Of a stretch of 64,000 nucleotides of DNA, positions 12,161 through 62,014 are shown in pieces. How positions within the stretch are numbered: the first letter of the stretch is position 1; each line of letters opens with the position of its first letter. Made by a program: the position numbers and the translations under genes. A model generated the notes under the pieces. It saw only the letters and a list, made by a program, of their open reading frames with translations. It ran no database searches and had not been told where the DNA came from. The stretch is from Psychrobacillus sp. FSL H8-0483 (GTDB lineage Bacteria; Bacillota; Bacilli; Bacillales_A; Planococcaceae): the NCBI RefSeq assembly GCF_038637725.1, contig NZ_CP152052.1, positions 1,533,501-1,597,500 of the forward strand, given 5' to 3'.

Positions 12161-12335
12161 GCGCTATTATATTTTACTGTTGCTTTTAGCATATAATTGG
12201 CGGTAGAATCGCGCAGACTCCTGCGGGAAAGCGAGAAAGACAAGACCCCGTAGGCGCAGCCGAGGAGGCTTGTCGGCTCGCCCGCGGAAAGTAAGCGGAT
12301 TCTAACTAGATGTCAACAATGTAATTTAACAGCGC
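12161..12335. repeat. 175-bp palindromic element with GCGCTGTTA-type ends
   Basis: Ends GCGCTATTATATTTTACTG and CAATGTAATTTAACAGCGC form imperfect terminal inverted repeats. Inside, AGAATCGCGCAGACTCCTGC pairs with the GCGG...GGATTCT side, and GACAAGACCCCG / CGAGGAGGCTTGTC form a second stem. The right edge touches the yqkD stop codon at 12336-12338. The core motifs GACTCCTGCGGG and GCGGAAAG are shared with other repeats in the window. Confidence 0.85.
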
Positions 12336-13265
12336 CTATTTATTTAATAAATTATTTTCTAGAAGGAAATCTGCAACAACTTGTTCATATTCCTCGCTAT
12401 TCTCATTAAAAGACTTAGCGTGTTCGCCAATCTCAAACAGTTTAAGCTTTTTCGGGCCATTTTTCTTCTCGTATAAATCTTTCGTCATTTTAGGTAAAAT
12501 AAAATCATCCTGTAAGCTGTGAATAAATAACACAGGCTTTTCAATGTTATCTACTACGTCAATTGGTGATACGAGATTTAACGTATAGCCATCACGTATT
12601 TTTAAAAATAAATTTGCGAAACGAATAGCAAGACTAGAACGAATTGGGGTAGTTTGTGTCATAATATGATACACCTGGTCTTCAAAATCTGAAAAAGCAC
12701 AATCAGAAATATAAAAATCCGCATCATCTACTATGGACCCAGCATAAAGAAGAGTAGTTGCTGCACCCATAGATTCCCCGTGGATTCCTATAATAGCTTG
12801 TTCTCCAGCACGTTCTCTTACTGCTTCTAAAATGGATTGTAAATCTATCTTTTCATAAAAACCGAAACTTGTTGTTTTTCCTCCAGAATCTCCATGTCGA
12901 CGATGATCGTACACCACAGTGTTAAAGCCCAATCTCTCAAACATCCGAACGAATCGAAGGGAATTGATTTTGTTTTCGGTCACTCCATGACAAATAATAA
13001 CGTAATTGTTTGTTTGTAATGGTTCTAGAAAAATTGCTTTTAACGAGTACCCATTTTTAGACTCGATCCACTGTTCTGTTTTATTGACAGTGTTATACCA
13101 TACTTCGTCTAATCGTTTTGAGGTAATTTCTCGATTTAAGATAAAGTCATATTCTTTTTTCTTCATATACATTAGCTTATTCGTCACAAAAAAACCAAAA
13201 ACAGTAGCCATTGCTGTAAGAACGCTTGTAAAAATACTCGTCCAAATGATTACTCTTTTTTTCAT
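12336..13265 (-). CDS. yqkD: YqkD-like membrane-anchored alpha/beta hydrolase
   Basis: 309 aa. N-terminal membrane helix (about 7-29), then an alpha/beta hydrolase fold: oxyanion segment ICHGVTENK, YDHRRHGDSGG, nucleophile elbow GIHGESMGA, acid residue in HSLQDDFI and His in GEHAKSF. Substrate unknown. AGGAG is 8 bases before the ATG. The gene is 11 bases downstream of the HMG-CoA lyase gene on the same strand, so they are probably one transcript. B. subtilis YqkD has the same length and neighbours (yqkE, yqkF). Confidence 0.85.
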   Translation of the reverse strand: MKKRVIIWTSIFTSVLTAMATVFGFFVTNKLMYMKKKEYDFILNREITSKRLDEVWYNTVNKTEQWIESKNGYSLKAIFLEPLQTNNYVIICHGVTENKINSLRFVRMFERLGFNTVVYDHRRHGDSGGKTTSFGFYEKIDLQSILEAVRERAGEQAIIGIHGESMGAATTLLYAGSIVDDADFYISDCAFSDFEDQVYHIMTQTTPIRSSLAIRFANLFLKIRDGYTLNLVSPIDVVDNIEKPVLFIHSLQDDFILPKMTKDLYEKKNGPKKLKLFEIGEHAKSFNENSEEYEQVVADFLLENNLLNK

Positions 13266-13276
13266 TCTCTCAACTC

Positions 13277-14173
13277 CTACTTGCTTTTGGATAGTTTATA
13301 CATCCCCGTTTCAATTGGGCGAGATACAAATGGTTCTATTGTATCTACAGCTTCTATTAATAAATCGAGGTCAATATTCGTTTCAATATTCATTTGTTCT
13401 AGCATATTCACAACATCCTCGGTTGCTACATTTCCAGTCGCACCAGGGGCAAAAGGACAACCTCCCAATCCACCGGTAGAGGTGTCAAATCGGTTAACCC
13501 CAGCTTGAAGTGCAGCCAAAATATTAGCTAGTCCCATTTTTCGAGTATCATGGAAATGAGCTGTAATAAGTGTGTTTGGAAATTCTTTTAGTAAGGCATC
13601 AAATAGATAATAACTTTCTTTTGGATTTGCCATTCCTATTGTATCCGCAACACTTAGTTCGTTTACACCCCAAGAAACAAACTTTCTACATAATTCGATT
13701 GTTTTTTTGGAATCAATTGCTCCTTCATATGGACAATGAAAAGCTGTAGATATGCATGCACGTACAAAATTCCCTTGTTCTAGTAGTTTTCCCACAATTG
13801 GTTGAAGTTCATCCATACTTTCTTGCGTTGTTTTATTAATATTTTTCTTATTAAAGCTATTAGATACCCCAACAAAAACAGCAAAGCTGCTAGCGTTAGC
13901 TTGAATCGCAAGTTCGACACCTTTTTCATTTGGTGTTAATACAAATTGTCGTCCTACTTTTTTAGCGTTAGCAACAATTTCTTGGGCATCTTTCATTTGT
14001 GGAACCCATTTTGGTGATACAAATGAGGTCAATTCCATCTCTTCCACCCCAGCCAATTGGAGTTTTTCAATAAACGCTAATTTTACCTCTGTAGGCACTT
14101 CATTTTTCTCGTTTTGTAGTCCATCTCTCGGTCCTACCTCGATAATTGTCACTTTATTTGGTAAACTAAACAT
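13277..14173 (-). CDS. mvaB: hydroxymethylglutaryl-CoA lyase
   Basis: Cleaves HMG-CoA to acetoacetate and acetyl-CoA at the end of leucine degradation. 298 aa TIM-barrel of the HMGL family: VGPRDGLQNE near the N-terminus, HFHDTR metal ligands and the GLGGCPFAPGATGN loop with the active-site cysteine. Two ATGs lie 6 bases apart; GGGAGG leaves 7 bases to the second (14173), so I start there. Divergent from a thiolase that can use the acetoacetyl-CoA product route, a sensible catabolic pairing. The B. subtilis equivalent is yngG. Confidence 0.93.
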   Translation of the reverse strand: MFSLPNKVTIIEVGPRDGLQNEKNEVPTEVKLAFIEKLQLAGVEEMELTSFVSPKWVPQMKDAQEIVANAKKVGRQFVLTPNEKGVELAIQANASSFAVFVGVSNSFNKKNINKTTQESMDELQPIVGKLLEQGNFVRACISTAFHCPYEGAIDSKKTIELCRKFVSWGVNELSVADTIGMANPKESYYLFDALLKEFPNTLITAHFHDTRKMGLANILAALQAGVNRFDTSTGGLGGCPFAPGATGNVATEDVVNMLEQMNIETNIDLDLLIEAVDTIEPFVSRPIETGMYKLSKSK

Positions 14174-14356
14174 AATCATCCCTCCCTCTTATATTGTAAG
14201 GAATGGATGGTTAAACAAGCAAATTTTATTCTAAATTAATAGAATAAGATTAAACCCTACAGTAGATATCACAGATTTGAGACTGTGTCGAGCTTGGCGT
14301 AGGAGTAAATAAGGTAAATAGGATTTGAATTTAGGGGAAAATGAGGAGGAATTAAC

Positions 14357-15538
14357 GTGACAAATGAAGTAGTGATTGTTAGTGCAGTAAGAACTGCAAT
14401 TGGGTCATTCCAAGGTGCGTTAAAAGATGTACCTGCAACAAAATTAGGGGCAATAGTAATTGAAAAAGCGTTGGAAAAAGCTGGGGTGTCAAAGGAAGTA
14501 GTAGATGAAGTGATAATGGGGAATGTCCTTCAAGCAGGTCTTGGGCAAAATCCAGCAAGACAAGCGTCCATTCAAGCAGGTTTACCACAATCTGTATCGG
14601 CACTTACCATTAATAAGGTATGTGGCTCTGGTTTAAAAGCAATTCATCTCGCAACTCAAGCAATTATTGCTGGTGATGCAGATATTATTGTAGCAGGTGG
14701 AATGGAGAACATGAGCCAAGCTCCTTATTTATTAAAAAATGCGAGAGATGGCTTCCGTATGGGCGATCAAAAAGTTGTGGATAGCATGATTTCAGATGGT
14801 TTATGGTGCGCCTTTAATGATTATCATATGGGAATTACAGCCGAAAACTTATGTGATCAATATAGCATTACAAGAGAAGAGCAAGATGCATTCTCTGCAC
14901 GTTCACAGGCAAGAGCAGCAACAGCGATTGAAGAAGGAAAATTTCAGGATGAGATCGTCCCTGTAGAAATTCCACAGCGAAAAGGCGATCCAATCATATT
15001 TGATACGGATGAATATCCGAAAAAAGACTCCACGCAAGAAAAATTAAGTGGTCTTCGTCCAGCATTTAAAAAGGATGGATCTGTCACTGCAGGAAACGCT
15101 TCTGGTATTAATGATGGAGCCGCTGCAGTAGTCGTGATGTCTAAAGCGAAAGCAGATGAGTTAGGATTAAAACCTCTTGCGACAATCGTTGCAAATGCAT
15201 CTGCCGGTGTAGATCCAAGTATTATGGGAATCGGACCAGTGGAAGCAGTGAAAAAAGTTTTGAACAAATCAAAAATTTCACTTGCGGATATTGATTTAAT
15301 TGAAGCAAATGAAGCTTTTGCTGCCCAATCGATTGCTGTTGATAGAGAACTAGTGTTTAATCATGATAAACTAAATGTAAACGGTGGTGCTATTGCTTTA
15401 GGCCATCCAATTGGTGCAAGTGGAGCACGTATTTTTGTATCTTTACTCCATGAAATGGAGAAACAGGATGCAAAAACTGGACTTGCAACACTTTGTATCG
15501 GTGGTGGGCAAGGAGTAGCAACAATCGTTACACGATAA
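14357..15538 (+). CDS. acetyl-CoA C-acetyltransferase (thiolase)
   Basis: Interconverts two acetyl-CoA and acetoacetyl-CoA. 393 aa with both catalytic cysteines ([10 protein letters not shown] and LCIGGGQG) and the active-site His in [14 protein letters not shown], plus NEAFAAQ. GTG start with GAGGAGG 7 bases upstream. It fits degradation of the acetoacetate released by the divergent HMG-CoA lyase, or supply for the mevalonate route or polyhydroxybutyrate; no genes here settle that. Confidence 0.95.
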
Positions 15539-15653
15539 GAAAAGCGGAAGAGATTTGCTAAGCATCGACAAGAAACGTTCTACTGCTACGAACTTGCGCA
15601 AGCAGAAAATTGGCATTTGACCTCGAGGGGCTAGGCGCTGCAACTAGACAGTA
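15539..15653 (+). repeat. degenerate AAGCGGAAG...GGGGCTAGGCGCT repeat abutting the thiolase stop codon
   Basis: Begins GAAAAGCGGAAGAG immediately after the thiolase TAA and ends GAGGGGCTAGGCGCTGCAACTAGACAGT. From general knowledge this resembles a widespread Bacillaceae intergenic repeat with these end motifs; I cannot verify by search. It contains small palindromes such as CTTGCGCAAG. Only one copy is in the window. Confidence 0.55.
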
Positions 15654-15706
15654 ACTAAGGAAGAAGGTTATACTTTCTTATATTTTTACTAAAGTAGGTG
15701 AACATT

Positions 15707-15967
15707 TTGGCGAAGAAAAAACAGAGACAACAACAGCGACAAGTAAAACCTTCTACTCCAAAGGAAGAAGGGAACGGTCTATTCGATCAACTTTCATCTG
15801 ATGTACTTGCTAAACTAAAAGAGACAAAGAAACAACTAATGGCAGTGGAGCAAGAGAAAGAGGAAGAGCGACAAGCACAATTGGCTTTTGAGAAGAAGCA
15901 AAAAGAAAAAAATAAATCATTTGAAGAACTACTGGATGAATATGGTTATGGTGGTTCAAAGTTTTAA
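15707..15967 (+). CDS. yqkE: YqkE-like DUF3886 protein
   Basis: 86 aa, very basic N-terminus (MAKKKQRQQQRQVK), then a charged coiled-coil-like helix (LAKLKETKKQLMAVEQEKEEE) and a conserved tail SFEELLDEYGYGGSKF. An upstream GTG at 15698 overlaps the ribosome binding site; TTG at 15707 gives the typical MAKKKQRQ start. Function unknown. Position near yqkD and yqkF agrees with B. subtilis. Confidence 0.8.
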   Translation: MAKKKQRQQQRQVKPSTPKEEGNGLFDQLSSDVLAKLKETKKQLMAVEQEKEEERQAQLAFEKKQKEKNKSFEELLDEYGYGGSKF

Positions 15968-15972
15968 TCAAT

Positions 15973-16252
15973 GGCTCTGTTAAATTAGACTATAGTTTTC
16001 TAGAAGAATACATTTTGTGTTGAAAATCTACGAGACTCCTGCGGAAAAATGGGCTGCCAAGACCCCATAACGGGCTTGTAGGAACAAATCGGTTTCCACC
16101 ATGTGGAAACCGATTTTCGTCTGTCGGCAACGCCATTCGACGTAGAAGGGGCGCTGTGATCAACATCCTGTTGCACTGAGGGGGCTTGACCGTTCGAACG
16201 CGGAAAGCGAGCTGATTTTCGGTAGCTAACAACATGATCTTTTAACAGAGCC
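15973..16252. repeat. 280-bp palindromic element with GGCTCTGTTAAA terminal inverted repeats, carrying inner hairpins
   Basis: Perfect 12-base ends GGCTCTGTTAAA / TTTAACAGAGCC. Inside are ACGAGACTCCTGCGG and GCGGAAAGCGAGC half-stems. Two inner hairpins stand out: a 14-bp perfect stem with a 3-base loop at 16086-16116 (AAATCGGTTTCCAC, CAT, complement) and CAACA-TCC-TGTTG at 16161-16173. It begins 6 bases after the yqkE stop. Shorter relatives are at 19759, 40430 and 61805. Confidence 0.9.
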
Positions 16253-16320
16253 TAATCAAAAAGCGATAAGATATGGTAAATGGTCTTTTTGATGAAATAA
16301 AAACAAAATATAGAGCGAAT

Positions 16321-16360
16321 AAATGACCTATCTGCAAAAGTAGATAGGTCATTTATTTTT
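16321..16360 (+). terminator. Rho-independent terminator downstream of the yqkE-side repeat
   Basis: Perfect 13-bp stem AAATGACCTATCT / AGATAGGTCATTT, 8-base loop, then ATTTTT. Probably the original yqkE terminator, separated from the gene by the repeat. Confidence 0.85.
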
Positions 16361-16469
16361 GGTATTTTGGGAGAATAATAAAAGTTCCCAAGTCATTGGG
16401 CAGAATAAGCATATAGTAATTAATAGGTAAATTATACATGGGCGATCATACAATAAAGGGGAGATAACA

Positions 16470-16814
16470 TTGGGTTTTCAAAACCCGTTTATTGGCAATA
16501 TTAATAACAATAACAATAATTCGAGTAATAATAACAGTTCACAAAACTTTGGACCTTTGCTCGCTCTTTGGGGTACAGTTGTATCCACATTAGGGGATAC
16601 GATGCAAGCAATTGGAGGAGCAATTGCAATTGAAGAGAGTAATATTGCCGACCAACAGCAGCAACAAGAACTGCAAAACCTGCAAAGTCAAATTGATGAA
16701 TTAAAGAAGGCTCAAACAAGCCCAGACATAGATAAGTTCAACAAATTGTTAGAGCAAGTCCTTAACCGTTTAGAACCGCAAGCCAACCCAAAAAAGAGCA
16801 CTAACCATAAATAG
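16470..16814 (+). CDS. hypothetical asparagine-rich small protein
   Basis: 114 aa, family not recognised. Residues 10-25 are almost pure Asn/Ser (NINNNNNNSSNNNSSQN), followed by a hydrophobic-amphipathic stretch FGPLLALWGTVVSTLGDTMQAIGG, a Gln-rich patch DQQQQQELQN and a coiled-coil helix (LQSQIDELKKAQ). TTG start; AAGGGGAG is spaced about 6-8 bases. The layout recalls small spore-associated or surface proteins of bacilli, but that is only a guess. It sits alone between two palindromic repeats and interrupts the yqkE-yqkF neighbourhood. Confidence 0.6.
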   Translation: MGFQNPFIGNINNNNNNSSNNNSSQNFGPLLALWGTVVSTLGDTMQAIGGAIAIEESNIADQQQQQELQNLQSQIDELKKAQTSPDIDKFNKLLEQVLNRLEPQANPKKSTNHK

Positions 16815-16823
16815 AATTAATTA

Positions 16824-17027
16824 TTGAGTTAATTTCATAAATAATACTTTGTCATTAAAAAACAACGTTTATCACATTGTTGATTGAAGTGGCAGGCGGC
16901 GACTCCAGCGGGATGAGTGAGGCAGATAAGCCATCACAAACGACGCGTGAGCGGCGGTGATGGCTTATCGCTCACCCCACGGAAAGCGTCCGCCTATAGC
17001 GGAAATCAACTATACTTTATTCCGTGT
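16824..17027 (+). repeat. ~200-bp interspersed palindromic element, copy 3
   Basis: Third member of the family at 3266 and 6683, same orientation. Perfect core GATAAGCCATCAC (16925-16937) / GTGATGGCTTATC (16957-16969); the loop is one base longer (GCGTGAGCGGC versus GCGTAGCGGC). It begins 10 bases after the stop codon of the Asn-rich gene. Confidence 0.92.
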
Positions 17028-17056
17028 AAAATATAAGATTTCTGGTAAACGACAAA

Positions 17057-17086
17057 AAGCTCTTAGCGACATCACGCTAGGAGCTT
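17057..17086 (-). terminator. terminator of the aldo/keto reductase gene
   Basis: AAGCTCTTAGCG / CGCTAGGAGCTT stem (one mismatch), 6-base loop, followed on the minus strand by a T run; 20 bases beyond the stop. Confidence 0.82.
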
Positions 17087-17105
17087 AATACCATGTGAAA
17101 AATGT

Positions 17106-18008
17106 TTAAACTCTATGCTCTGTATATACATCTTGTTTCGTAATCTGGTTAACTTTTTGCAATATGTCTTCCGAAACATGCACATTGTATGCTTCGATGG
17201 ATTCTAGAAGCTGTTCTCTACTACTTGCACCAATTATCATTGAACCTGTCACTTTTCTTTGTAATACATACTTAAGTGCAACGGAAGTAATAGGGGCATT
17301 TAAAGATTGTAATTGTTCGATAGTCTCCATTAATTCCGCATTAGAATATGACAAATATTCATTGGTTTTATTCGCGCGATTTAGCCCATCTGCAGTTAAT
17401 AATCCTTTAGCCAGGGTTCCGCGACTAAACAAGGAAGCGTCATTCTTCTCTAGTAATGAAAACCATTCTTCTGGTCTTCTATCTAGTAAACTATATTGCA
17501 TCATAACGGAGACAGCATTGCTTTTTTGTAAAAAGCGATTAATCACAGTTGGTCGAATAGAAGAGATACCATATTCGCGGATAAGTCCTTCCTTTTTCAG
17601 TGATTCCATCGTATCGATCACTTCATCGACATCATCTTCCATTGTTCCTCCGTGTAATTGATACACATCTATATAATCAGTTTGAAGACGCTTTAATGAC
17701 TCGTGAACTGCTGCAGTTATCCATTTCTTCGATGGATCCCAATTCCAGCCGTCTCCTGATTCCTTCATGCGATTGCCGACTTTCGTTGCGAGGATAATAT
17801 TCTGTCGATTGTTTTTGAAGGAATTTCCGACAATCTGTTCATTTTCACCTTTATCATATAAATCTGCTGTATCAAAATAAGTAATTCCGTTATCGATTGC
17901 TGTATGGATAATTTTATCTGCATTTTTTTGATCTGTTGGAAGCGACATACAACCTAACCCAATCTCCGAAACATATATATCACTTTTTCCTAATTGTCTT
18001 GTTTTCAA
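17106..18008 (-). CDS. yqkF: YqkF-like aldo/keto reductase
   Basis: NAD(P)H-dependent reductase of unknown carbonyl substrate. 300-aa AKR barrel: GLGCMSLP near the N-terminus, catalytic Tyr in DTADLYDKGENE, Lys in ATKVGNR, His in YQLHGGT, and a C-terminal IIGASSREQLLE cofactor segment. TTG start; AAAGGA lies about 11 bases upstream, a slightly long spacing. Position next to nudF, and on the opposite strand, is as in B. subtilis. Confidence 0.9.
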   Translation of the reverse strand: MKTRQLGKSDIYVSEIGLGCMSLPTDQKNADKIIHTAIDNGITYFDTADLYDKGENEQIVGNSFKNNRQNIILATKVGNRMKESGDGWNWDPSKKWITAAVHESLKRLQTDYIDVYQLHGGTMEDDVDEVIDTMESLKKEGLIREYGISSIRPTVINRFLQKSNAVSVMMQYSLLDRRPEEWFSLLEKNDASLFSRGTLAKGLLTADGLNRANKTNEYLSYSNAELMETIEQLQSLNAPITSVALKYVLQRKVTGSMIIGASSREQLLESIEAYNVHVSEDILQKVNQITKQDVYTEHRV

Positions 18009-18164
18009 GATTCATCACGTCCTTTACTCCATGTTACAATTAGTACTATATAGATTCAACCTTATACTAGGGTTGGTATAGGGTAGAAGTTTCTGGGGAT
18101 TGCATAGATTTACTTAATCTGATGCAATACTTCGAGATACATTTGATAGGAGAGGAAGATAGAA

Positions 18165-18713
18165 ATGAAAAAATTTGAGGAAAAAACTACTCAATCTGAT
18201 CTTATATACAAAGGGAGAATTATCACCTTACAAGTGGATGAAGTCTTACTCCCAAACGGAAAAACTAGTAACAGAGAGATTGTGAAACACCCGGGAGCAG
18301 TAGCTGTTATTGCTTTGACGAAAGATAAAAAGATTATCTTAGTAGAACAATATCGAAAAGCGTTAGAACGTTCCTTAGTAGAAATTCCTGCTGGGAAAAT
18401 GGAACTTGGCGAACTGCCAGAAGTAACTGCACTCCGAGAATTGGAAGAAGAGACCGGGTATACCGCTAGTAAGCTGCAATATGTTCAATCTTTTGCCACA
18501 TCTCCTGGGTTTGCAGATGAGATTATACATCTCTATTTTGCAGAGAATATAGAGAAAATGACAGTAAAAGCAGATCTAGATGAGGATGAGTTTGTTGAGT
18601 TAATGCATGTTTCTATGGAAGAAATGGAAGGTTTAATTGCTAATAAACAAGTCTATGATGCGAAAACAGCTTTTGCATTTCTTTGGTTAAAAGATTATTT
18701 AAAATTGGCATGA
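18165..18713 (+). CDS. nudF: ADP-ribose pyrophosphatase, Nudix hydrolase
   Basis: Hydrolyses ADP-ribose to AMP and ribose-5-phosphate. 182 aa with a complete Nudix box, GELPEVTALRELEEETGY (G-x5-E-x7-REx2EExG). The N-terminal IYKGRIITLQVDEVLLPNGK strand region is typical of this subfamily. GAGAGGAAG lies 9 bases before the ATG. Followed 49 bases later by a membrane protein gene and then fur. Confidence 0.94.
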   Translation: MKKFEEKTTQSDLIYKGRIITLQVDEVLLPNGKTSNREIVKHPGAVAVIALTKDKKIILVEQYRKALERSLVEIPAGKMELGELPEVTALRELEEETGYTASKLQYVQSFATSPGFADEIIHLYFAENIEKMTVKADLDEDEFVELMHVSMEEMEGLIANKQVYDAKTAFAFLWLKDYLKLA

Positions 18714-18762
18714 TTTAAACTAGTACAAGCATATGATGAAAATAGATAGGGGGTGTTCCAAT

Positions 18763-19230
18763 TTGAACCAGTCTTATACTATTTTCATTTCACTATGCGT
18801 ACTTGTTATTAGTTTTATCGGCGGATTATATTTGTTTGAAAAAAGCACACCAGAACAGCAGCAATGGATTATTAATCTCTTGGACGCACGTGTTCTATTA
18901 GTAGAACAACCTACTTTTCTAGAAACTATTTTTCCTCATTTGATGATCGCAGTCGTATTTTTTTTGTTTTATCAACACCGTTATTTGCGAAAACTCATCT
19001 TAGTTATTTGTGCTTTTAAAATTACATTTTACGGTTTCTGCTCTAGTTATTTGCTTCAATCACAAGACTCTACATTTCCATATGTATTTTGGTGGTTCCC
19101 ATTTCAATTAGTCTATTGTATCCTTCTTCTAGCTCTAGCAAATCGGGTTAATTTATTCGCGCTGTCCTTCTATATAATCGTTATTATTATAGAGTTCTTC
19201 TTAATGCCATTTATACTATTTAATAATTAG
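18763..19230 (+). CDS. polytopic membrane protein between nudF and fur
   Basis: 155 aa, about four to five membrane helices (residues 5-25, 50-65, 72-90, 105-125, 128-150). I do not recognise it firmly. In B. subtilis spoIIM (septal peptidoglycan dissolution in sporulation) lies in this interval just before fur, and the helix pattern with LILVICAFKITFYGFCSSYLL recalls SpoIIM, but the protein is shorter and divergent. TTG at 18763 has GGGGGTG well spaced; the ATGs upstream do not. Confidence 0.7.
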   Translation: MNQSYTIFISLCVLVISFIGGLYLFEKSTPEQQQWIINLLDARVLLVEQPTFLETIFPHLMIAVVFFLFYQHRYLRKLILVICAFKITFYGFCSSYLLQSQDSTFPYVFWWFPFQLVYCILLLALANRVNLFALSFYIIVIIIEFFLMPFILFNN

Positions 19231-19237
19231 TACTTAT

Positions 19238-19292
19238 TAATAATTATTATAGATTGAATCTCTTGTAATGAGAATTCAATTCTTGGTATAAT
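19238..19292 (+). promoter_or_regulatory. fur promoter with PerR-box-like operator
   Basis: TAATAATTATTATAG (19238-19252) matches the PerR box TTATAATNATTATAA at 12 of 14 fixed positions. Downstream, TTGTAA (19263-19268) and an extended -10 TGGTATAAT (19284-19292) form a promoter 24 bases before the fur start. A perfect AGAATT-C-AATTCT repeat lies between -35 and -10. PerR control of fur is known in B. subtilis. Confidence 0.6.
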
Positions 19293-19315
19293 GGAGGAAG
19301 TTAAGGAGGCGTCAC

Positions 19316-19756: not shown

Positions 19757-19758
19757 TA

Positions 19759-19867
19759 GTCTCTGTATTATTAGGTTGTTGTTTTTTAGAAGAATATATT
19801 TTGTGCCGAAAATCCGCGGAAAGCGAGCGAATTATCGGCAGGTAACAACTTATCGTTTCACAAAGCC
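19759..19867. repeat. internally deleted palindromic element of the GGCTCTGTTAAA family
   Basis: Starts GTCTCTGTATTATTAGG 3 bases after the fur stop and ends TTTCACAAAGCC. It keeps TTTTTTAGAAGAATATATTTTG and the right part GCGGAAAGCGAGCGAATTAT, ending as the 15973 copy does, but lacks the middle including the GACTCC arm. Confidence 0.8.
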
Positions 19868-19874
19868 AAATAAT

Positions 19875-19907: not shown

Positions 19908-19924
19908 AATCGGGAGGTATTAGG

Positions 19925-40428: not shown

Positions 40429-40429
40429 C

Positions 40430-40482
40430 ATCGGAAAGCGAACAGATTTTCGTTCATAACATCATGATCGTTTAACAGAGCC
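40430..40482. repeat. right-end fragment of the GGCTCTGTTAAA palindromic family
   Basis: CATCGGAAAGCGAACAGATTTTCGTTCATAACATCATGATCGTTTAACAGAGCC-like segment (positions given) matching the last 53 bases of the 15973 element. The left end is missing. Confidence 0.8.
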
Positions 40483-40583
40483 TTCTACTAAAATATGAAA
40501 CAGTATTATTGCATCTCCTCCATTATTTTGTTAAGATGTTATTAATTCAAGATAAATAGCTTGAAGGACAACAAAATATTGAT

Positions 40584-40716
40584 TCATCTTCGGGGCAGGG
40601 TGTAATTCCCGATCGGCGGTAATAGAATTTTTTTCTTGAGCCCGCGAGCCGTTAAGGCAGGATTTGGTTAAATTCCAAAGCCGACAGTATAGTCTGGATG
40701 GGAGAAGGTGAAGGTG
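40584..40716 (+). ncRNA. FMN riboswitch (RFN element)
   Basis: Conserved RFN blocks in order: CTTCGGGGCAGGGTG, AATTCCCGATCGGCGGT, GAGCCCGCGAGCC, GGCAGGATTTGGTTAAATTCC, AAAGCCGACAGT and GTCTGGATGGGAGAAGG. It lies 150 bases upstream of ribU and is followed by an intrinsic terminator, so it most likely works by FMN-dependent transcription termination. Confidence 0.95.
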
Positions 40717-41463: not shown

Positions 41464-41500
41464 AAAGGTCGTTTCTCTAATGGAGAGAAACGACCTTTCA
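41464..41500 (+). terminator. ribU terminator (first of two identical hairpins)
   Basis: 15-bp perfect stem AAAGGTCGTTTCTCT / AGAGAAACGACCTTT with loop AATGG, 2 bases after the ribU stop. The same hairpin recurs at 41781. Confidence 0.85.
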
Positions 41501-41548: not shown

Positions 41549-41664
41549 GGCAAGGACCACCACTTCGCTTTCCGTGGGCTTGGCTTCAGCCTCCTCGTCA
41601 CTGTGTTCCTGCGGGGTCTTCTGCTCAAGCTGTTCCCACAGGAGTCTTCGTGGTGGTCCTTGCC
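41549..41664. repeat. 116-bp palindromic element with 15-bp perfect terminal inverted repeats
   Basis: GGCAAGGACCACCAC (41549-41563) and GTGGTGGTCCTTGCC (41650-41664). The interior has CGCTTTCCG, GGCTTCAGCCTCCTCG and CTGCGGGGTCTT, the reverse-complement versions of the motifs in the 12161 element, so it is the same superfamily in the opposite orientation. Confidence 0.85.
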
Positions 41665-41780: not shown

Positions 41781-41818
41781 AAAGGTCGTTTCTCTAATGG
41801 AGAGAAACGACCTTTCGT
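41781..41818 (-). terminator. fer terminator (second identical hairpin)
   Basis: Exact copy of the 35-base hairpin at 41464, here 7 bases beyond the fer stop (41825). Palindromic, so it can serve either strand. Confidence 0.82.
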
Positions 41819-48103: not shown

Positions 48104-48549
48104 GGGGCTGTCCCTAAAGTCATATAGTGACTGAGAGATGGTCCCTTTTCCAATGTATTGATTTCCGTTCCTGACGGACGCCTTCCGCGGGCATGGCTTT
48201 AGTCTCCTCAGGCCAACACGATGTTGGTCACGAAGGCGTTGAGGCCCACAGGATGTGGGTCATGCAATCGTTGCCGCAGGACGCGGCGAACTTAGATTGC
48301 CTTCCATTTGAGGTGGCGTTCTTAGCCTTTGTTCCTTTGTTCTCTCCTGCGGGGCCTTCAGCTCATGCACCTGCCGCTTCGCTTTCGGTGCAGAAAACAT
48401 CTGCTATTCCCGCTGGAGTCGCCGTCTTCCCCTACAATCAATTGCCTACAAAAAATAGTAGTTTTATAAAAAGTATACAAATAACAGGTGTAGAAAAAGA
48501 CTCGTTTTTCTACACCTGCTTCAATTTTATGGGCTTATTGGACAGCCCC
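48104..48549. repeat. 446-bp palindromic element with GGGGCTGTCC ends and tandem mini-hairpins
   Basis: Terminal inverted repeats GGGGCTGTCC (48104-48113) / GGACAGCCCC (48540-48549). The interior carries CTTCCGCGG, GTCTCCTCAGG, TCTCCTGCGGGGCC and CGCTGGAGTCGCCG, superfamily motifs. Three small hairpins lie in a row: CCAACA-CGA-TGTTGG (48213-48227), CCCACA-GGA-TGTGGG (48245-48259) and GCCGC-AGGAC-GCGGC (48273-48287). A further stem, GGTGTAGAAAAAGA / TTTTTCTACACC, lies near 48489-48517. An open frame across it has no ribosome binding site and is not treated as a gene. Confidence 0.9.
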
Positions 48550-54243: not shown

Positions 54244-54244
54244 A

Positions 54245-54832: not shown

Positions 54833-54925
54833 TTAGAATTTTTATTTTCCAGAAGTGCTTCTTTTTGTATTTCTGTCTTAGTTCGCATAAAATAGATAAG
54901 AGACGTTGTGAAGGAGGAATATCAT

Positions 54926-56065
54926 ATGTCAGAAGAAATGAACTTAAACACACATGAGTTTAAAGAGGGAGATCTAGTAAAAGCGACGGTTGCACAGGTA
55001 GACGAAAAATCCGTAATCGTATCAATTGAAGGTGCACCTTTCGATGGAATAGTTCCAATTAGTGAACTATCTAGCTTGCATATTGAAAAAGCATCCGACT
55101 CCGTTTCCATCGGTGATGAATTAGAACTTATGATTACAAAAGTAGAAGAAACAAACTTTGTTCTCTCTAAACGAAAAGTGGATGCTGAGAAAGCATGGGA
55201 ACAGTTAGAAAAGCAATATCAAGCAGGAGAAATTATTGAAACAGAAGTAAAAGAGGTAGTTAAAGGTGGATTGGTCGTAGATCTAGGCGTACGTGGATTC
55301 ATACCTGCTTCTTTAATTGAAGATCATTTCGTTGAGTCGTTTGAAGATTATAAAGGCAAAGTATTAACTTTTAAAATTGTCGAGTTAGAAAAAGATAAAA
55401 ATCGATTAATCCTGTCACATAAAGCAGTTCTAGAAGATGAAAAATCCGTAAGTAAACAAAAAACATTGAATTCCATTCAAAGTGGAGATATAGTTTCTGG
55501 GACAGTACAACGAATTGCTTCATTTGGTGCTTTCGTAGATATAGGTGGAGTAGACGGACTTGTGCATATTTCGCAAATCTCTCATGAACATTTGGAGAGT
55601 GTGACTAATGTTTTATCAGAAGGACAACAAGTGAAAGTGAAAGTACTTTCAATCGATAGAGATGCAGAAAGAATTTCTTTATCTATTAAAGATACTTTAC
55701 CTGGTCCATGGGCAGAAATGGAAGAAAAAGCTTCTAAAGGAGCTGTATTAACAGGTAAAATTAAACGACTTGTTTCTTATGGAGCATTTGTTGAAGTATT
55801 CCCTGGTGTGGAAGGACTTGTTCATATTTCTCAAATTGCACACCAACATGTTGGTACACCGCAAGAAGTGTTAAAAGAAGGCCAAGAAGTCCAAGTGAAA
55901 GTGCTAGAGGTAAATAGTGCGGAAAAACGACTTTCTTTAAGTATTAAAGAGCTAGTTGAAAACGAGGATGCATTTAATTTGGCTGATTATCAACTACCGG
56001 AAGAATCTAAAGGTTTCTCCATTAGTGATGTGCTAGGTGACAGACTAAAAAACTTTACAAAATAA
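54926..56065 (+). CDS. rpsA: 30S ribosomal protein S1 homologue
   Basis: RNA-binding protein assisting translation. 379 aa with four S1 domains (about 12-80, 100-165, 190-258, 275-343), each with GxxVDIGG- or [15 protein letters not shown]-type motifs. Shorter than the six-domain Gram-negative S1, as normal in bacilli (YpfD). AAGGAGG lies 8 bases before the ATG at 54926. Confidence 0.95.
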
Positions 56066-56085
56066 GATTAGTAACTAAGAATCAC

Positions 56086-56120
56086 AAAGCAGGTGACTTC
56101 AATAAAGTCGCCTGCTTTTG
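56086..56120 (+). terminator. rpsA terminator
   Basis: AAAGCAGGTGACTT / AAGTCGCCTGCTTT stem (one G-T pair), 5-base loop, T run. Confidence 0.88.
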
Positions 56121-56171
56121 TCATTTTGTTGTATAATACAAAATAGACGAAGTTGGAAGGATGAATAAGTA

Positions 56172-57482
56172 ATGACAAAACCAGTAGTAGCAATCGTTGG
56201 TAGGCCGAATGTCGGCAAATCGACTATATTTAATCGAATCGTAGGAGAGCGTGTATCTATCGTGGAAGATATTCCAGGAATTACACGTGATCGTATATAT
56301 AGTTCTGCCGATTGGTTAACACATGAATTTAATATTATTGATACAGGTGGTATTGAATTAAGTGATGAACCGTTTTTAGAACAAATAAAACAACAAGCTG
56401 AAATCGCAATGGATGAAGCAGATGTTATTATTTTCTTAACAAATGGTCGTGAAGGAATTACATCAGCGGATGAGTATGTAGCTAAGATTTTATACAAAAC
56501 AAAAAAACCAATCGTTTTAGCAGTAAATAAAATTGATAATCCTGATATGCGTGAAATGATTTATGACTTTTATTCTTTAGGAATGGGTGAACCTTTCCCT
56601 ATTTCAGGATCTCATGGTCTTGGTTTAGGAGATTTATTAGACGAAGTGGCGAAAAACTTCCCAGAAGTAGAAGATCAAGAGTATGGCGAAGAAGTTATCA
56701 AATTCTCTCTAATCGGAAGACCGAATGTTGGTAAATCTTCTTTAATCAATGCATTTTTAGGGCATGATCGCGTAATTGTAAGTGAAATAGCAGGTACAAC
56801 ACGAGATGCTATTGATACGGAGTATACATTTGACGATCAAGATTACGTGATGATTGATACAGCTGGAATGCGTAAAAAAGGAAAAGTATACGAAACAACT
56901 GAAAAATACAGTGTGCTTCGTGCTTTAAAGGCTATCGAACGTTCTGACGTTGTTTTAGTTGTTTTAAATGCGGAAGAAGGAATTCAAGAGCAAGATAAAA
57001 AAATTGCTGGATATGCGCATGAAGGCGGAAAAGCAGTAATTATTGTTATGAATAAATGGGATGCAATCGAAAAGGATGACAAAACTATGAATGAAATGAC
57101 GAAATCCATTCGTGAACATTTCCAATTCTTAGATTATGCACCGATTATTTTTGTTTCAGCAAAAACCAAACAACGTGTAAATGCTATTTTCCCAGTTATT
57201 AATAAAGTAAGTGAAAACCATGCACTACGAGTTCAATCTTCCGTATTAAATGAGGTAATTGAGGACTCTGTAGCACGTAATCCTGCTCCAACAGACAAAG
57301 GAAAACGACTTCGTATTTATTATGCAACTCAAGTAGCTATTAAGCCACCTACATTTGTTGTGTTCGTAAATGAACCTGAAATGATGCATTTCTCATATGA
57401 ACGATTTTTAGAAAATCGAATTCGTGAATCCTTTGATTTTGAAGGGACTCCAATACGAATTATTACTCGCGCAAGAACTTGA
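56172..57482 (+). CDS. der: ribosome biogenesis GTPase Der (EngA)
   Basis: Double GTPase for 50S assembly. 436 aa: two G domains, each with P-loop ([18 protein letters not shown]), G3 (DTGG, DTAG) and NKxD (NKID, NKWD), then a KH-like C-terminal domain. Gene order rpsA-der-gpsA as in B. subtilis, without the intervening yphA-type genes. Confidence 0.97.
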
Positions 57483-57510
57483 TTATATAGGTTTAGGGGG
57501 CGTAATTGAA

Positions 57511-58530
57511 ATGGAGAAAGTAACTGTACTTGGAGCAGGGAGCTGGGGAACAGCACTTGCAATGGTGCTTGCTAATAATAATCATGATTGTCTCCTTTGG
57601 TCACATCGAGAAGACCAAGCGAGCGAAATAAATGAACAACATACAAACAATAAGTATTTACCGAATACTCTTTTACCTAATAACTTAAAATCGACGAGTG
57701 ATTTTGAGCAAGCAATTCAACATGCATCAACAATTGTTATAGCAGTACCTACGAAGGCTATCAGAGAAGTATGTCAGGACATGATACAACATTTAAATGA
57801 AAAAAAATTGTTTGTACATGTTTCAAAAGGAATCGAACCTGATTCCTTCAAACGAATTTCGGAAATGATAGAAGATGAGTTGCCGACTAATCTTGTGGAA
57901 GCAATTGTTGTTCTATCAGGTCCAAGTCATGCAGAAGAAGTAGTGTTGCATCACCCTACAACTGTTACTGCTGCAAGTTCAATGATTGACGCCGCAAAAA
58001 AAGTACAAAATCTATTTACGAATACTTCTTTTCGAGTTTATACAAACGAAGATGTAATCGGGGTAGAGATTGGAGCAGCACTAAAAAATGTAATAGGTTT
58101 AGCAGCTGGTATTGTCGATGGATTAGGTTATGGAGACAATGCAAAGGCTGCTCTAATTACTAGAGGACTTGCAGAAATTTCAAGACTAGGTATTAGTTTA
58201 GGTGCTCAACCGTATACTTTTTCAGGTTTAACTGGTATGGGTGATTTAATTGCGACATGTACAAGTGTTCACTCTAGAAACTGGAGAGCGGGGAATATGC
58301 TTGGGAAAGGGGCTTCCCTCGAAAAAGTATTGGATGAAATAGGTATGGTAGTCGAAGGTGTACGAACAACGAAAGCGGCATACCAACTTGCGAAAAAGCA
58401 GCAAGTAGACATGCCTATTACAGAAGCACTACATTCGGTATTATTTGAAGGTGGTCAACCAAAAGAAGCCGTAGATATCCTTATGCATCGTACAAAAAAA
58501 CATGAGTTAGAGGATTATAAAACGTTCTAA
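57511..58530 (+). CDS. gpsA: glycerol-3-phosphate dehydrogenase (NAD(P)+)
   Basis: Makes sn-glycerol-3-phosphate for phospholipids. 339 aa: Rossmann motif VLGAGSWGTALA, catalytic Lys in GAALKNVIGLAAG, and GLTGMGDLIATC. A frame reaching back into der is ignored; GGGGG lies before the ATG at 57511. Ends directly at a repeat. Confidence 0.96.
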   Translation: MEKVTVLGAGSWGTALAMVLANNNHDCLLWSHREDQASEINEQHTNNKYLPNTLLPNNLKSTSDFEQAIQHASTIVIAVPTKAIREVCQDMIQHLNEKKLFVHVSKGIEPDSFKRISEMIEDELPTNLVEAIVVLSGPSHAEEVVLHHPTTVTAASSMIDAAKKVQNLFTNTSFRVYTNEDVIGVEIGAALKNVIGLAAGIVDGLGYGDNAKAALITRGLAEISRLGISLGAQPYTFSGLTGMGDLIATCTSVHSRNWRAGNMLGKGASLEKVLDEIGMVVEGVRTTKAAYQLAKKQQVDMPITEALHSVLFEGGQPKEAVDILMHRTKKHELEDYKTF

Positions 58531-58531
58531 C

Positions 58532-58704
58532 CTTCAGACTGTTGAGAAACGCTCGCATTCTTCGTTGCTCCTGCGGTTACTCGTCGCAGAAAAAAGCGTT
58601 GCTCCTGCGCGAAGCTCGTCGCATACAAAGAATTAAAACCGATCCGACATGATTTCGCGAACTTAGGTTGCATTCTTGGACAAGTGTTTTCATTCCGTCT
58701 GAAG
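58532..58704. repeat. 173-bp palindromic element with CTTCAGAC ends and a 34-bp tandem duplication
   Basis: Ends CTTCAGAC (58532-58539) / GTCTGAAG (58697-58704). Two tandem 34-bp units begin at 58563 and 58597, each CGTTGCTCCTGCG-x5-TCGTCGCA, and each folds into a small CTGCG/CGCAG-type hairpin. It starts 2 bases after the gpsA stop. Confidence 0.8.
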
Positions 58705-58797
58705 AACATATTAAAACAACAAATTGAGTTGTATGAAATACAACTCTTTTTTTGTTATGGTATACTTTTTAACTGTAGAAAGGTGGGGAAACTCTTG

Positions 58798-59001
58798 TTG
58801 TTAATATCATCAATGGATAAGATGTGGATTTCGTTTGGGTCTATGGGATGTTTGTTGCTAGCTATGATAGTTATGTATTTTGTAAAAAATAAGTTTACAA
58901 ACAGTTTCTTGAAATTTATCTTCGGTTTGTTTGCATACATATTGTTATTTATAGGTTTTATCACGATGGTGTATATCATCTTTAATCCAACAAAAGCTTA
59001 G
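58798..59001 (+). CDS. yphE: YphE, DUF2768 membrane protein
   Basis: 67 aa, two membrane helices (GSMGCLLLAMIVMYFV and FLKFIFGLFAYILLFIGFI). AGGTGGGG lies 9 bases before TTG 58798 (another TTG at 58795 and an ATG at 58813 are possible). Length equals B. subtilis YphE, which also lies between gpsA and spoIVA. Function unknown. Confidence 0.82.
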   Translation: MLISSMDKMWISFGSMGCLLLAMIVMYFVKNKFTNSFLKFIFGLFAYILLFIGFITMVYIIFNPTKA

Positions 59002-59014
59002 TAAGGAGATTCGG

Positions 59015-59725
59015 ATGAAAAAAATTAGTCTTTTTGCAGTTCTTGCCTTTGGGGTACTACTATTAACCGGTTGCGGTTATAAAAGTGGTTATGAACCAGA
59101 AAATTTATTGCCATATGAAGATCAATTAGACGCTGTACAAAACGCTGTCGACAGCTTTAGAGAAAACTCTAGTGGTTTGTTACCAATCAAGACACGTGAT
59201 ATGGAGACCGATCAATATATTAAATATCCAATAGACTTTAAAAAAATCGTTCCAGCTTATTTGGGTAAAGCACCAGCAAATTCGTATGAAGCAGGTGGAA
59301 TTTATCAATATGTTCTAATGGATGTTGAAGAAAATCCGACTGTAAAATTAGTTGATTTGCGAATGGCAGATACCCTACGTGACATAAATTACAGAAAAGG
59401 GATTAATGGGTTTGGCCCTATTGCAGATACCATCGCTGAAGGTGTATATAAGCTAGATTACAAGAAGATGGGATATAAAAGTGAACTGTCTGTTCAAAGC
59501 CCGTATTCGGACACTCAGCTACCTCTAGTAGCTACTGGCGATGGAAAGGTATATGTAGATTATTCTATTGAGTTGAGTCGGTTGCTTCAAGAAACGAAAG
59601 CTGAAGTAAAGCCAGGGGAAGATATTCGCTTTCTTTTGACGGATAATTTTGCAATTGTTCCAGCTTACTCACTTCCCTACACTGTAAATGAAAATAATGA
59701 GCCTGTTTTTATGATTGCTAAATAA
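59015..59725 (+). CDS. yphF: YphF-like lipoprotein
   Basis: 236 aa. Signal peptide with lipobox LLTGC (Cys20), rest exported. AAGGAG lies 6-7 bases before the ATG. Found between yphE and spoIVA in bacilli; probably sporulation-linked by position only. No catalytic motif seen. Confidence 0.87.
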   Translation: MKKISLFAVLAFGVLLLTGCGYKSGYEPENLLPYEDQLDAVQNAVDSFRENSSGLLPIKTRDMETDQYIKYPIDFKKIVPAYLGKAPANSYEAGGIYQYVLMDVEENPTVKLVDLRMADTLRDINYRKGINGFGPIADTIAEGVYKLDYKKMGYKSELSVQSPYSDTQLPLVATGDGKVYVDYSIELSRLLQETKAEVKPGEDIRFLLTDNFAIVPAYSLPYTVNENNEPVFMIAK

Positions 59726-59744
59726 ATTGAATTTTCTTAAACTT

Positions 59745-59777
59745 AACGTTTCATGCTTTATGCATGAAACGTTTTTT
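59745..59777 (+). terminator. yphF terminator
   Basis: AACGTTTCATGC / GCATGAAACGTT perfect 12-bp stem, 5-base loop, then TTTT. Confidence 0.9.
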
Positions 59778-59815
59778 GTGTGCATATATTAAATGGCGAA
59801 GAAAGGAGAGTATCC

Positions 59816-61294
59816 ATGTCGAGTAAACTGTATGAACAAATAGCAGAACGAACAAATGGCGATGTGTATATTGGTGTAGTTGGTCCGGTGAGGGTAGGGA
59901 AATCTACCTTTGTTAAAAGAGTAATGGAGCTAGTTGTCATTCCGAATATTCAAGAGGAATCAGAAAGATTACGTGCTCAAGATGAACTGCCACAAAGCTC
60001 CCCAGGTAATGTTATTATGACTGCTGAACCTAAATTTGTACCTGCTCATGGAACGAATATTCATCTTGGTGAAGACCAACTACGTCTACAAATTCGGTTA
60101 GTAGATTGTGTAGGTTACATGATTGATGGCATAAAGACGCACTCAGGTGAAGATGGACAGAAACTAGTGCATACGCCATGGCACAATGAAGCTATACCAT
60201 TTGAAGAAGCTGCTAGAATTGGAACTGATAAGGTAATTCGTGACCATTCTACCATTGGGATTGTTGTAACCACAGACGGAACAGTTAATAATATTCCTAG
60301 AAAAGCGGCGGAAGCGGCAGAGCAACAAATAATTGCACAATTAAAAGAAATAGGAAAGCCTTTTGTTATTGTTTTAAATAGTAAGACGCCTGGTCATATT
60401 GAGACACTTCAATTATCTGAAGAATTACAAAAACTACACGAAGTTCCTGTTATTCCCGTTGCAGTAGATCGAATGACGGCGGAGGAAATTCAATACATAC
60501 TTCAACAAGCATTGTATGAATTTCCAATTACCGATATTGAATTAGTAAAGCCAGATTGGACCGATGTATTAGAACCAGATCATTTTGTGAATAATGCAAT
60601 TACATCTTCCTTACAGGAATGGCTTCAAATCGTCTCAAAGATGAAAGATGTAAAAGAACTAGCTAATAGATTTAAGCAAGTGCCTTTTATTCAATCAGCA
60701 GAAGTAGTTGAAGCGAATCCAGGTAGAGGGTCTGCATGCATTCAAATAGGCTTAAAACCAGAAGTATTTCAAGAAGTGTGTGATGAGTGGCTAGAAGAAC
60801 CAATTCAATCCAAAAAAGACTGGCTCTTATTTGTGAAAGAAGCTTCTACCGCGAAAAAAGCGTACAATAAATTTTCTGAAGCATTGGAAGCAGCTAAAAC
60901 TACTGGTTATGGGGTTTCACTTCCAACTTTACAAGACTTTCAGCCTTCTGCACCAGAAATTATTAAGCAAAATAATTTTTTTGGAGTTAGTTTAAAAGCA
61001 AAAGCCGCGTCTCTTCACATTATTCGAGTAGACATGGAAGCAGAATTTGCACCACTCATTGGCTCAGAGTTTCACAGTCAACAGTTATTAAAAGATTTAA
61101 AACATGGTTATTTACATGATCGTGATGCTCTATGGCAAACACAAGTCTTTGGAACATCCTTAGTCGAAGTGTTGAAAGAGAGCTTGCGATATAAAACGGA
61201 TAGCGTTTCAACTGTTGCGAAAAAAAGAATGAGACAAACGATTGAACGAATGGTCAATGAAGGCGATCGAGGGATGGTTACATTTATACTGTAA
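59816..61294 (+). CDS. spoIVA: spore coat morphogenetic ATPase SpoIVA
   Basis: Polymerises on the forespore surface to form the coat basement layer and is needed for cortex. 492 aa, identical in length to B. subtilis: Walker A GPVRVGKST (23-31), middle and C-terminal domains, C-terminal NEGDRGMVTFIL. AAAGGAGAG precedes the ATG at 59816; a longer frame upstream is unsupported. Confidence 0.97.
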   Translation: MSSKLYEQIAERTNGDVYIGVVGPVRVGKSTFVKRVMELVVIPNIQEESERLRAQDELPQSSPGNVIMTAEPKFVPAHGTNIHLGEDQLRLQIRLVDCVGYMIDGIKTHSGEDGQKLVHTPWHNEAIPFEEAARIGTDKVIRDHSTIGIVVTTDGTVNNIPRKAAEAAEQQIIAQLKEIGKPFVIVLNSKTPGHIETLQLSEELQKLHEVPVIPVAVDRMTAEEIQYILQQALYEFPITDIELVKPDWTDVLEPDHFVNNAITSSLQEWLQIVSKMKDVKELANRFKQVPFIQSAEVVEANPGRGSACIQIGLKPEVFQEVCDEWLEEPIQSKKDWLLFVKEASTAKKAYNKFSEALEAAKTTGYGVSLPTLQDFQPSAPEIIKQNNFFGVSLKAKAASLHIIRVDMEAEFAPLIGSEFHSQQLLKDLKHGYLHDRDALWQTQVFGTSLVEVLKESLRYKTDSVSTVAKKRMRQTIERMVNEGDRGMVTFIL

Positions 61295-61301
61295 ATATGC
61301 T

Positions 61302-61340
61302 ACAGGGCTTTTCGCATCTATGCGAAAAGTCCTGTTATTT
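61302..61340 (+). terminator. spoIVA terminator
   Basis: 16-bp stem ACAGGGCTTTTCGCAT / ATGCGAAAAGTCCTGT (one G-T pair), 2-base loop, then TATTT. Confidence 0.88.
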
Positions 61341-61466
61341 CATAATTTTACAAGTTTTTTCGGGAAAGTTCGCTAAACACGCACAAATAGTGTTGCGAAG
61401 GGTTTTCCATTGTGATAATCTTTTAACAGGATTGAAGCTATCTTCCTTTGAGAGGAGGTGAATGGT

Positions 61467-61739
61467 ATGAATAAAACAGAATTAGTGAACTCTGTTGCAG
61501 AGGCTGCAGATCTTTCTAAAAAAGACGCTTCTAAAGCTGTAGAAGCTGTATTTGAATCAATTCAAACTGCTCTTGCAGATGGTGAAAAGGTTCAATTAAT
61601 CGGTTTTGGTAACTTTGAGGTTCGTGAACGTGCAGCACGTAAAGGGCGTAACCCTCAAACAGGTATGGAAATCGACATCGCTGCAAGCAAGGTGCCAGCT
61701 TTTAAACCAGGTAAAGCACTTAAAGACGCAGTTAAATAA
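61467..61739 (+). CDS. hbs: DNA-binding protein HU (HBsu)
   Basis: Nucleoid-associated histone-like protein. 90 aa: [41 protein letters not shown] beta-arm region and [24 protein letters not shown] is 7 bases before the ATG at 61467; the GTG three codons upstream overlaps it. Confidence 0.97.
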
Positions 61740-61757
61740 CTGATGACGTAGTACATA

Positions 61758-61799
61758 GAACGGTTATTGTGGAGCTTACTTCACGGTAACCGTTCTTTT
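61758..61799 (+). terminator. hbs terminator
   Basis: GAACGGTTA / TAACCGTTC perfect 9-bp stem with an inner GTG/CAC pairing, then TTTT. Confidence 0.85.
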
Positions 61800-61804
61800 C
61801 AATT

Positions 61805-62014
61805 GGCCTTGTTATATTAGGCAGTTGTTTTTTAGAAAAATATATTTTATTACAAATATCCGTGAGACTCCTTCGGAAAGACGGGCTGCCAAGACCCCCT
61901 AGCGGGCTTATAAGAACAAATCCTACATCCGGTTGTCCCGAGGAGGCTCGGAAGTTCTTCCGCGGAAAGCGAACGGATTTTCGGCAGGTAACAGCATTAT
62001 CGTTAAACAGAGCA
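61805..62014. repeat. 210-bp palindromic element of the GGCTCTGTTAAA family
   Basis: Left end GGCCTTGTTATATTAGGCAG, right end CGTTAAACAGAGC, with TTTTTTAGAAAAATATATTTT, GTGAGACTCCTTCGGAAAG, CCGAGGAGGCTCGG and CCGCGGAAAGCGAACGGATT in the order of the 15973 copy. It begins 6 bases after the hbs terminator. Confidence 0.88.

Follow-up and report, generated by a model that had tools for sequence, protein, structure and literature searches.

Insertion downstream of terminator stem-loops is known from group IIC introns, which are RNA-based and leave no target duplication such as the one described here. The main repeat family of this study, alpha, differs from them in having inverted repeats, 8-bp duplications and copies of 75-412 bp; the lengths and duplications do not fit a group IIC intron, and no group II intron match was found in the window (the whole 64,000-nt stretch of the Psychrobacillus sp. 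FSL H8-0483 chromosome that was analysed).

Bacterial MITEs, as described in the available parts of PMC10969869 and PMC6382973 (the latter on MITEAba12), share more with alpha: they are short and non-coding, with terminal inverted repeats, target duplications, A/T-rich insertion sites and a mostly intergenic location. Unlike the elements covered there, alpha prefers the run of Ts that follows a terminator hairpin, often has a stop codon within its duplication and carries a GC-rich nested core. The pneumococcal BOX, RUP and SPRITE repeats resemble alpha in being over-represented between convergent genes and in nesting, and SPRITE also lies near gene 3' ends, a bias that the available part of PMC3049150 attributes to tolerance. 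SPRITE is itself terminator-like in that account, whereas alpha mostly lacks an internal hairpin with a T-run and follows closely on a terminator that is not part of it. The Bacillaceae-1 RNA (RF01690), a candidate RNA in the sections available of PMC2864571 and PMC4333381, is here a module within dispersed repeats.

Repeat families in the window

Copies of the palindromes that a sequence-only reading had noticed at gene 3' ends were collected from the 4.14-Mb chromosome; the gene names used here (yqkD, yqkE, fur, hbs, rsiX, gpsA, thiolase, Asn-rich) are labels from that reading. A single family for all of the palindromes was ruled out, since their ends and duplication lengths differ (8 bp for alpha, 3-4 bp for beta). 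Several families lie behind the 3'-end pattern, with the following members in the window:

12159..12336, no strand assigned: alpha-type element of the sub-type with a GGCGCTGTTAAA-like end, between yqkD and a convergent gene ending at 12121 (terminal inverted repeats; duplication TATTTGTT at 12151-12158 and TATTTATT at 12337-12344)
15973..16252, + strand: alpha element 3' of yqkE (duplication TAATCAAT at 15965-15972, which starts with the stop codon, and TAATCAAA at 16253-16260)
19759..19867, + strand: alpha element without the central core, between the fur stop codon and a two-way terminator (duplication AAATAATA on both sides)
40429..40482, + strand: right-hand fragment of alpha, directly 3' of the terminator at rsiX (profile match and BLAST)
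61805..62014, + strand: alpha element 3' of the hbs terminator (duplication TTTCAATT on both sides)
3254..3470, + strand: beta copy (edges are those of the shared repeat; terminal repeat from about 3268)
6685..6961, + strand: beta copy with both terminal repeats, 3' of a gene ending at 6661 (edges by eye)
16826..17028, + strand: beta copy with a shortened right end, 3' of the Asn-rich gene ending at 16814
15539..15662, + strand: delta insert 3' of the thiolase gene (two more partial matches genome-wide)
41549..41664, no strand assigned: epsilon palindrome, with other copies in the genome
48102..48560, no strand assigned: eta repeat, carrying Bacillaceae-1 (RF01690) at 48245-48311 on the - strand
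58531..58626, no strand assigned: zeta, the insert after gpsA (approximate edges)

The close spacing claimed for these elements largely stood. The distances from the stop codon at yqkE (5 nt) and fur (2 nt) were as given; at yqkD the element overlaps the stop by 1 nt rather than abutting it (its end, 12336, is the last G of TAG), and T-runs begin 14 and 7 nt before 12160. The elements at hbs and rsiX do lie beside terminators: counted from where the T-run starts, the hbs edge is at 12 nt and the rsiX fragment at 7 nt (terminator distances of 5 and 1 had been claimed). By eye, the beta copies behind the genes ending at 6661 and 16814 begin about 23 nt and 11 nt past the stop, respectively (claimed, 21 and 9).

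Alpha as a MITE

The terminal inverted repeats of alpha are GGCTCTGTTAAA, with 137 matches at one mismatch or fewer compared with 24 for a reversed control. Its target duplication is 8 bp long (flank identity 0.77 versus 0.435 in shuffles, z = 11, 30 copies) and its target consists of a T-tract, eight A-or-T bases and an A-tract. For beta, the duplication is 3-4 bp (z = 6.3 at 3 bp; 3 bp by identity, 4 bp with a shared A included). Orthologous sites in relatives are empty of alpha: the element was absent from 18/18 congeneric genomes at hbs, where the terminator was conserved, and from 18/18 at fur. None of 11 Psychrobacillus-group loci had an alpha element at yqkD, and none of 16 relatives examined had an alpha-like element after yqkE. 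Alpha thus has the terminal inverted repeats, fixed-length target duplication and empty orthologous sites by which a MITE is recognized. No ISL3 or IS240 transposase that could be its parent was found in its own genome, and a search of 1.604 Mb gave no unit bounded by terminal inverted repeats with a transposase-like gene (nine long pairs with alpha ends were checked by eye).

Placement relative to terminators and stop codons

Placement was counted after removal of eight of 53 pairs of terminal inverted repeats that were without profile support; of 54 two-ended alpha copies, one was unplaceable and 53 were used. A loose terminator rule, under which most calls fell in genes, was replaced by a tightened one. 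An in-pointing intrinsic terminator lay within 20 nt of 25/53 copies, compared with 5.0% expected for random intergenic sites, 11.6% for AT- and class-matched sites and 20.5% for sites matched by a PWM of 20 target columns, learned from the same alpha sites that it was used to match (p = 1.2e-5). A stop codon lay within -3 to 5 nt of 13/53 copies versus 4.9% of PWM-matched sites (p = 1.4e-6). When gap class was matched as well, 22.1% and 6.4% were expected for terminators and stops, respectively (p = 4.8e-5 and 2.3e-5), so that the stop excess was 5.0-fold with the PWM and 3.8-fold with PWM and class. A narrow stop-distance control with nothing below +5 had given an excess of about 41- to 48-fold, which the widened control lowered. 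The 3'-end bias first noticed in the window therefore exceeds chance among the 53 copies, against both random and motif-matched sites. The other 28/53 copies were free of terminators to a distance of 20 nt.

The terminator excess over motif-matched sites climbed with hairpin stability, from 2.2- to 2.8- to 3.3-fold at -9, -11 and -13 kcal/mol (25, 25 and 23 of the 53 copies), and the hairpin excess was seen in tandem and divergent gaps too. Within convergent gaps alone, where 8/15 copies were at hairpins, the excess was not significant at -8 and -9 kcal/mol (p = 0.08 and 0.06), and was significant only at -11 and -13 kcal/mol (p = 0.019 and 0.0025).

The divergent promoter regions named in the sequence-only reading are indeed free of elements, but this does not extend beyond the window: 9/53 alpha copies lay in divergent gaps, where about 12 were expected (PWM, 23.5%; depletion not significant, p = 0.33). 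Among 38 copies facing a called gene start, ten had it within 40 nt. Good target sites numbered 2292 in genes and 1955 between genes. None of 153 alpha loci was centred in a kept gene call, a weak test of coding sequence because gene calls largely covered by elements had been left out; with an earlier, looser placement, 4/104 alpha and 8/110 beta loci lay in or over a gene or the edge of a stretch.

Model for insertion and competing explanations

We consider it probable (about 0.72) that the palindromes are non-autonomous transposable elements, MITEs, placed by terminator-proximal insertion plus purifying selection. A putative transposase, whose identity we infer rather than observe, would act on the alpha ends and insert the element with its 8-bp duplication at sites of T-tract, eight A/T and A-tract, a description that would fit the run of Ts following the hairpin of an intrinsic terminator. 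Stable hairpins would be preferred beyond the base motif, presumably by acting during insertion rather than via later selection, and the distance from the beginning of the T-run to the element would then be 6-16 nt in many copies. A stop codon that falls inside or next to the 8-bp duplication would end up 0-5 nt from the edge of the element, so that much of the striking stop-codon spacing is explained without function. Gene-breaking insertions would be purged, and those in 3' regions would remain. Of the two origins first proposed for the bias, insertion at terminators or 3' ends is supported by the duplications, empty sites, target motif and excess at stable hairpins. With small jumping elements landing behind terminators, the pattern is mainly one of insertion and tolerance, not a new RNA-ending system. 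This would provide a concrete targeting rule (terminator T-run, 8-bp duplication) for a bacterial MITE, where 3' bias had been ascribed to tolerance; no published report of such a rule for a MITE or IS element was found in the literature searched, which lay mostly outside the subscription journals.

More tentatively, the transposase might recognize the terminator as a structure (hairpin and T-run), a safe-haven rule by which alpha would have spread to about two hundred loci with genes left intact. Bacillaceae-1 might then be no stand-alone gene but a module that travels within such elements, in many of the family's genomes.

Tolerance alone, with MITEs inserting at any A/T-rich site and surviving behind genes, where terminators merely happen to lie, seems to us unlikely. 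The target motif by itself does account for a rise in sites at terminators from 5% to about 21%, convergent gaps are over-represented (15/53 copies versus 16% expected, p = 0.024), and the same bias of pneumococcal repeats and IS elements is put down to tolerance in the available part of PMC3049150. However, the excess over motif-matched sites persists, grows with hairpin stability and is not confined to convergent gaps, and divergent gaps are not significantly depleted.

It is improbable that the RF01690 centre is a dispersed CsrA-binding RNA kept for that role. RF01690 makes up the alpha centre in 10/13 loci tested, with matches above the gathering score; CsrA binding by its reverse complement is proposed in the available part of PMC4333381; the genome has csrA; and RF01690 occurs in 82/105 csrA-positive but 7/16 csrA-negative genomes of the family. 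That association is confounded by ancestry, one genus (g12) mostly lacking both, and the elements have no clear orientation bias. Two genomes without a csrA hit (G102 and G110) have 20 and 37 RF01690 matches, so CsrA is not required. The Rfam 'sRNA' RF01690 should be treated with caution in this bacterial family, where its matches may be transposable sequence in dispersed copies.

The other origin first proposed, in which the elements are retained as terminators or as 3' structures of mRNAs, is very improbable: stable palindromes do adjoin stop codons, a far-side hairpin within 30 nt is missing from 8/13 of the copies next to a stop (transcripts may thus extend into the elements), and alpha keeps 93% of predicted pairs, with an identity of 0.93 at the centre versus 0.81-0.89 in the arms, but in 22/53 copies the facing gene has a terminator of its own ahead of the element, an internal hairpin and T-run that could make the element an intrinsic terminator occur in only 6/54 alpha and 0/18 beta two-ended copies, covariation is weak (15 alpha copies; double changes, 4 versus 1.4 in shuffles with a maximum of 6; broken pairs, 43 versus 47), orientation is little skewed (17 to 12 and 8 to 5) and the 18 congeneric genomes examined lack the hbs and fur elements.

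Beta and the minor families

As raw counts without a control, 6 of the 18 two-ended beta copies had a stop codon within 12 nt and 7 had an in-pointing terminator within 40 nt. The delta insert had three matches genome-wide, itself included, and zeta had nine BLAST matches, itself included, in 39% of the genome.

Repeat families, target duplications and empty sites

The window (G000:C1:1533501-1597500) belongs to one 4,136,829-bp contig. Ten Psychrobacillus genomes are the nearest named relatives by yqkD protein (85-90% identity), together with another that is labelled Bacillus sp. FJAT-22090. Repeat searches assigned the window palindromes to several families, not a single one. The main family, alpha, has 12-bp ends (GGCTCTGTTAAA) that occur 137 times with at most one mismatch, versus 24 times for the reversed control; a second family, beta, has ends GARTYAATTTCATAA. 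Profiles identified 55 alpha and 64 beta loci in 60 evenly spaced 20-kb stretches, which extrapolates to ~190 and ~221 loci genome-wide; these figures are rough, since they take in fragments and elements with only the core in common.

Across 30 full-length copies, the alpha edges carry direct repeats of exactly 8 bp (identity 0.77 versus 0.435 for shuffled pairs, z=11); z stays at or below 3.1 for every other length between 2 and 12. The beta repeats are 3 bp (18 copies; 0.85 versus 0.45, z=6.3), or 4 when one common A is included. In the window, the duplication is exact at hbs (TTTCAATT) and fur (AAATAATA); the pairs at yqkE and yqkD are TAATCAAT/TAATCAAA and TATTTGTT/TATTTATT. By eye, the hbs and fur elements are absent from 18/18 other congeneric genomes examined, all of which retain the hbs terminator hairpin and T-run. 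At yqkD, an alpha element is missing from all 11 loci of the Psychrobacillus group, two of which (L152 and L153) contain some other sequence at that position, and the window's elements on the 3' sides of thiolase and yqkE are absent from all 14 and all 16 relatives compared, respectively.

Alpha copies of ~110 bp without the central core were seen at window 19759-19867 and at genome positions 1214689, 4024898 and 2728210. With arms joined at or near CCGC, these copies look as though they either lost the palindrome through deletion between short direct repeats or had yet to gain it.

Position relative to terminators and stop codons

Gene calling used a dicodon model; for terminators, the rule required a hairpin plus T-run. 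The two-ended alpha set (n=54) comprised 45 copies defined by terminal repeats (TIR) plus duplication and nine by profile; 8/53 TIR pairs, which had no profile support, were excluded. The copies are those fetched by searches rather than a random sample, and controls came from the same blocks. Of these, 53 could be placed: 29 in tandem, 15 in convergent and nine in divergent gaps.

The alpha target consists of ~5 T-rich bases (T 83% beside the duplication), eight A/T and an A-rich stretch (A 76%), and was modelled with a 20-column motif (PWM). An in-pointing terminator lies within 20 nt of 25/53 copies (20.5% expected from PWM-matched sites; 2.3-fold excess, p=1.2e-5), with the element edge 6-16 nt, most commonly 11, past the start of the T-run. 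A stop codon lies at -3 to 5 nt in 13/53 (4.9% expected; 5.0-fold, p=1.4e-6). Seven of these are at exactly 5 nt, which is where a duplication starting with the stop codon would put them. With controls matched on both PWM and gap class, the excesses were 2.1-fold and 3.8-fold.

At the fur 3' end, other repeat-like sequences were seen by eye at or beside the same terminator in L342 (genome G021), L334 (G010) and L339 (G009), which hints at terminators as recurrent targets. In L342, a sequence between the fur stop and terminator ends like the window's thiolase insert (...CTAGGTACTGCCGCTAGACAG) and may represent another delta-type insertion next to a gene 3' end. A perfect 36-nt hairpin (AAAGGTCGTTTCTC...) flanks the epsilon palindrome as two identical (100%) copies (window 41464-41499 and 41781-41816), with no further copy in the scanned 39% of the genome; a terminator may have been duplicated along with the epsilon insertion. 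The alpha fragment past the rsiX terminator is followed, ~100 nt downstream, by the start of an FMN riboswitch (RF00050; window 40582-40713, +).

Targeting, tolerance or a retained RNA role

The sequence-only reading had attributed the position of palindromes at gene 3' ends either to insertion targeting or to retention as mRNA 3' structures. With PWM-matched controls, the terminator excess climbs with hairpin stability: 25, 25 and 23 of 53 copies qualify at -9, -11 and -13 kcal/mol (2.2-, 2.8- and 3.3-fold). In convergent gaps, in which promoter-related selection is expected to be weak, 8/15 copies qualify at all thresholds (p=0.08, 0.06, 0.019 and 0.0025 at -8, -9, -11 and -13 kcal/mol). This favours targeting, on a small sample (n=15) and with several thresholds tried. 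A two-way terminator accounts for only part of the stop-adjacent copies, since a far-side hairpin within 30 nt is found in 5/13 and lacking in 8/13.

If tolerance alone acted, elements behind genes would be those that survive selection. Good alpha target sites are roughly equally divided (2292 in genes, 1955 between genes), and no locus was centred in a kept gene call (0/153 alpha, 0/125 beta), a weak test given the prior removal of gene calls lying mostly under elements. Alpha is somewhat enriched in convergent gaps (15 versus ~9 expected, p=0.024) and not significantly depleted in divergent ones (9 versus ~12, p=0.33). Tolerance and targeting may act together.

A retained function could explain why the alpha centre is better conserved (0.93) than the arms (0.81-0.89) in 15 aligned full-length copies, in which 93% of predicted pairs are kept. 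Several observations speak against a retained RNA role: in 22/53 copies, the terminator of the gene that faces the element lies between the two (3 more have an in-pointing hairpin on the side whose gene does not face the element); just 6/54 alpha and 0/18 beta two-ended copies contain a hairpin plus T-run; covariation is weak, judged by double changes (4; shuffle mean 1.4, maximum 6) and broken pairs (43; mean 47, minimum 42); and orientation shows no clear bias (17 to 12 among tandem-gap copies, 8 to 5 among stop-adjacent ones).

The RF01690 core and CsrA

RF01690 lies inside 10/13 alpha loci tested. When the full alpha sequence was searched against relatives, only its middle was covered among the matches listed. 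By eye, 11/17 RF01690 loci from other genomes have the same GC-rich shell as alpha (7/7 from the genus, 4/10 others). RF01690 is present in at least 89/121 family genomes (up to 38 candidates scored per genome).

PMC4333381 proposes that CsrA binds the reverse complement of RF01690. We found csrA in 105/121 family genomes; RF01690 is in at least 82 of these 105 and in at least 7/16 genomes without a csrA match, two of which contain at least 20 and at least 37 RF01690 matches. A role for CsrA is neither established nor needed.

In the window, a Bacillaceae-1 RNA (RF01690) match at 48245-48311 (-) lies in a repeat with GGGGCTGTCC-like ends, the shell of which differs from that of alpha.
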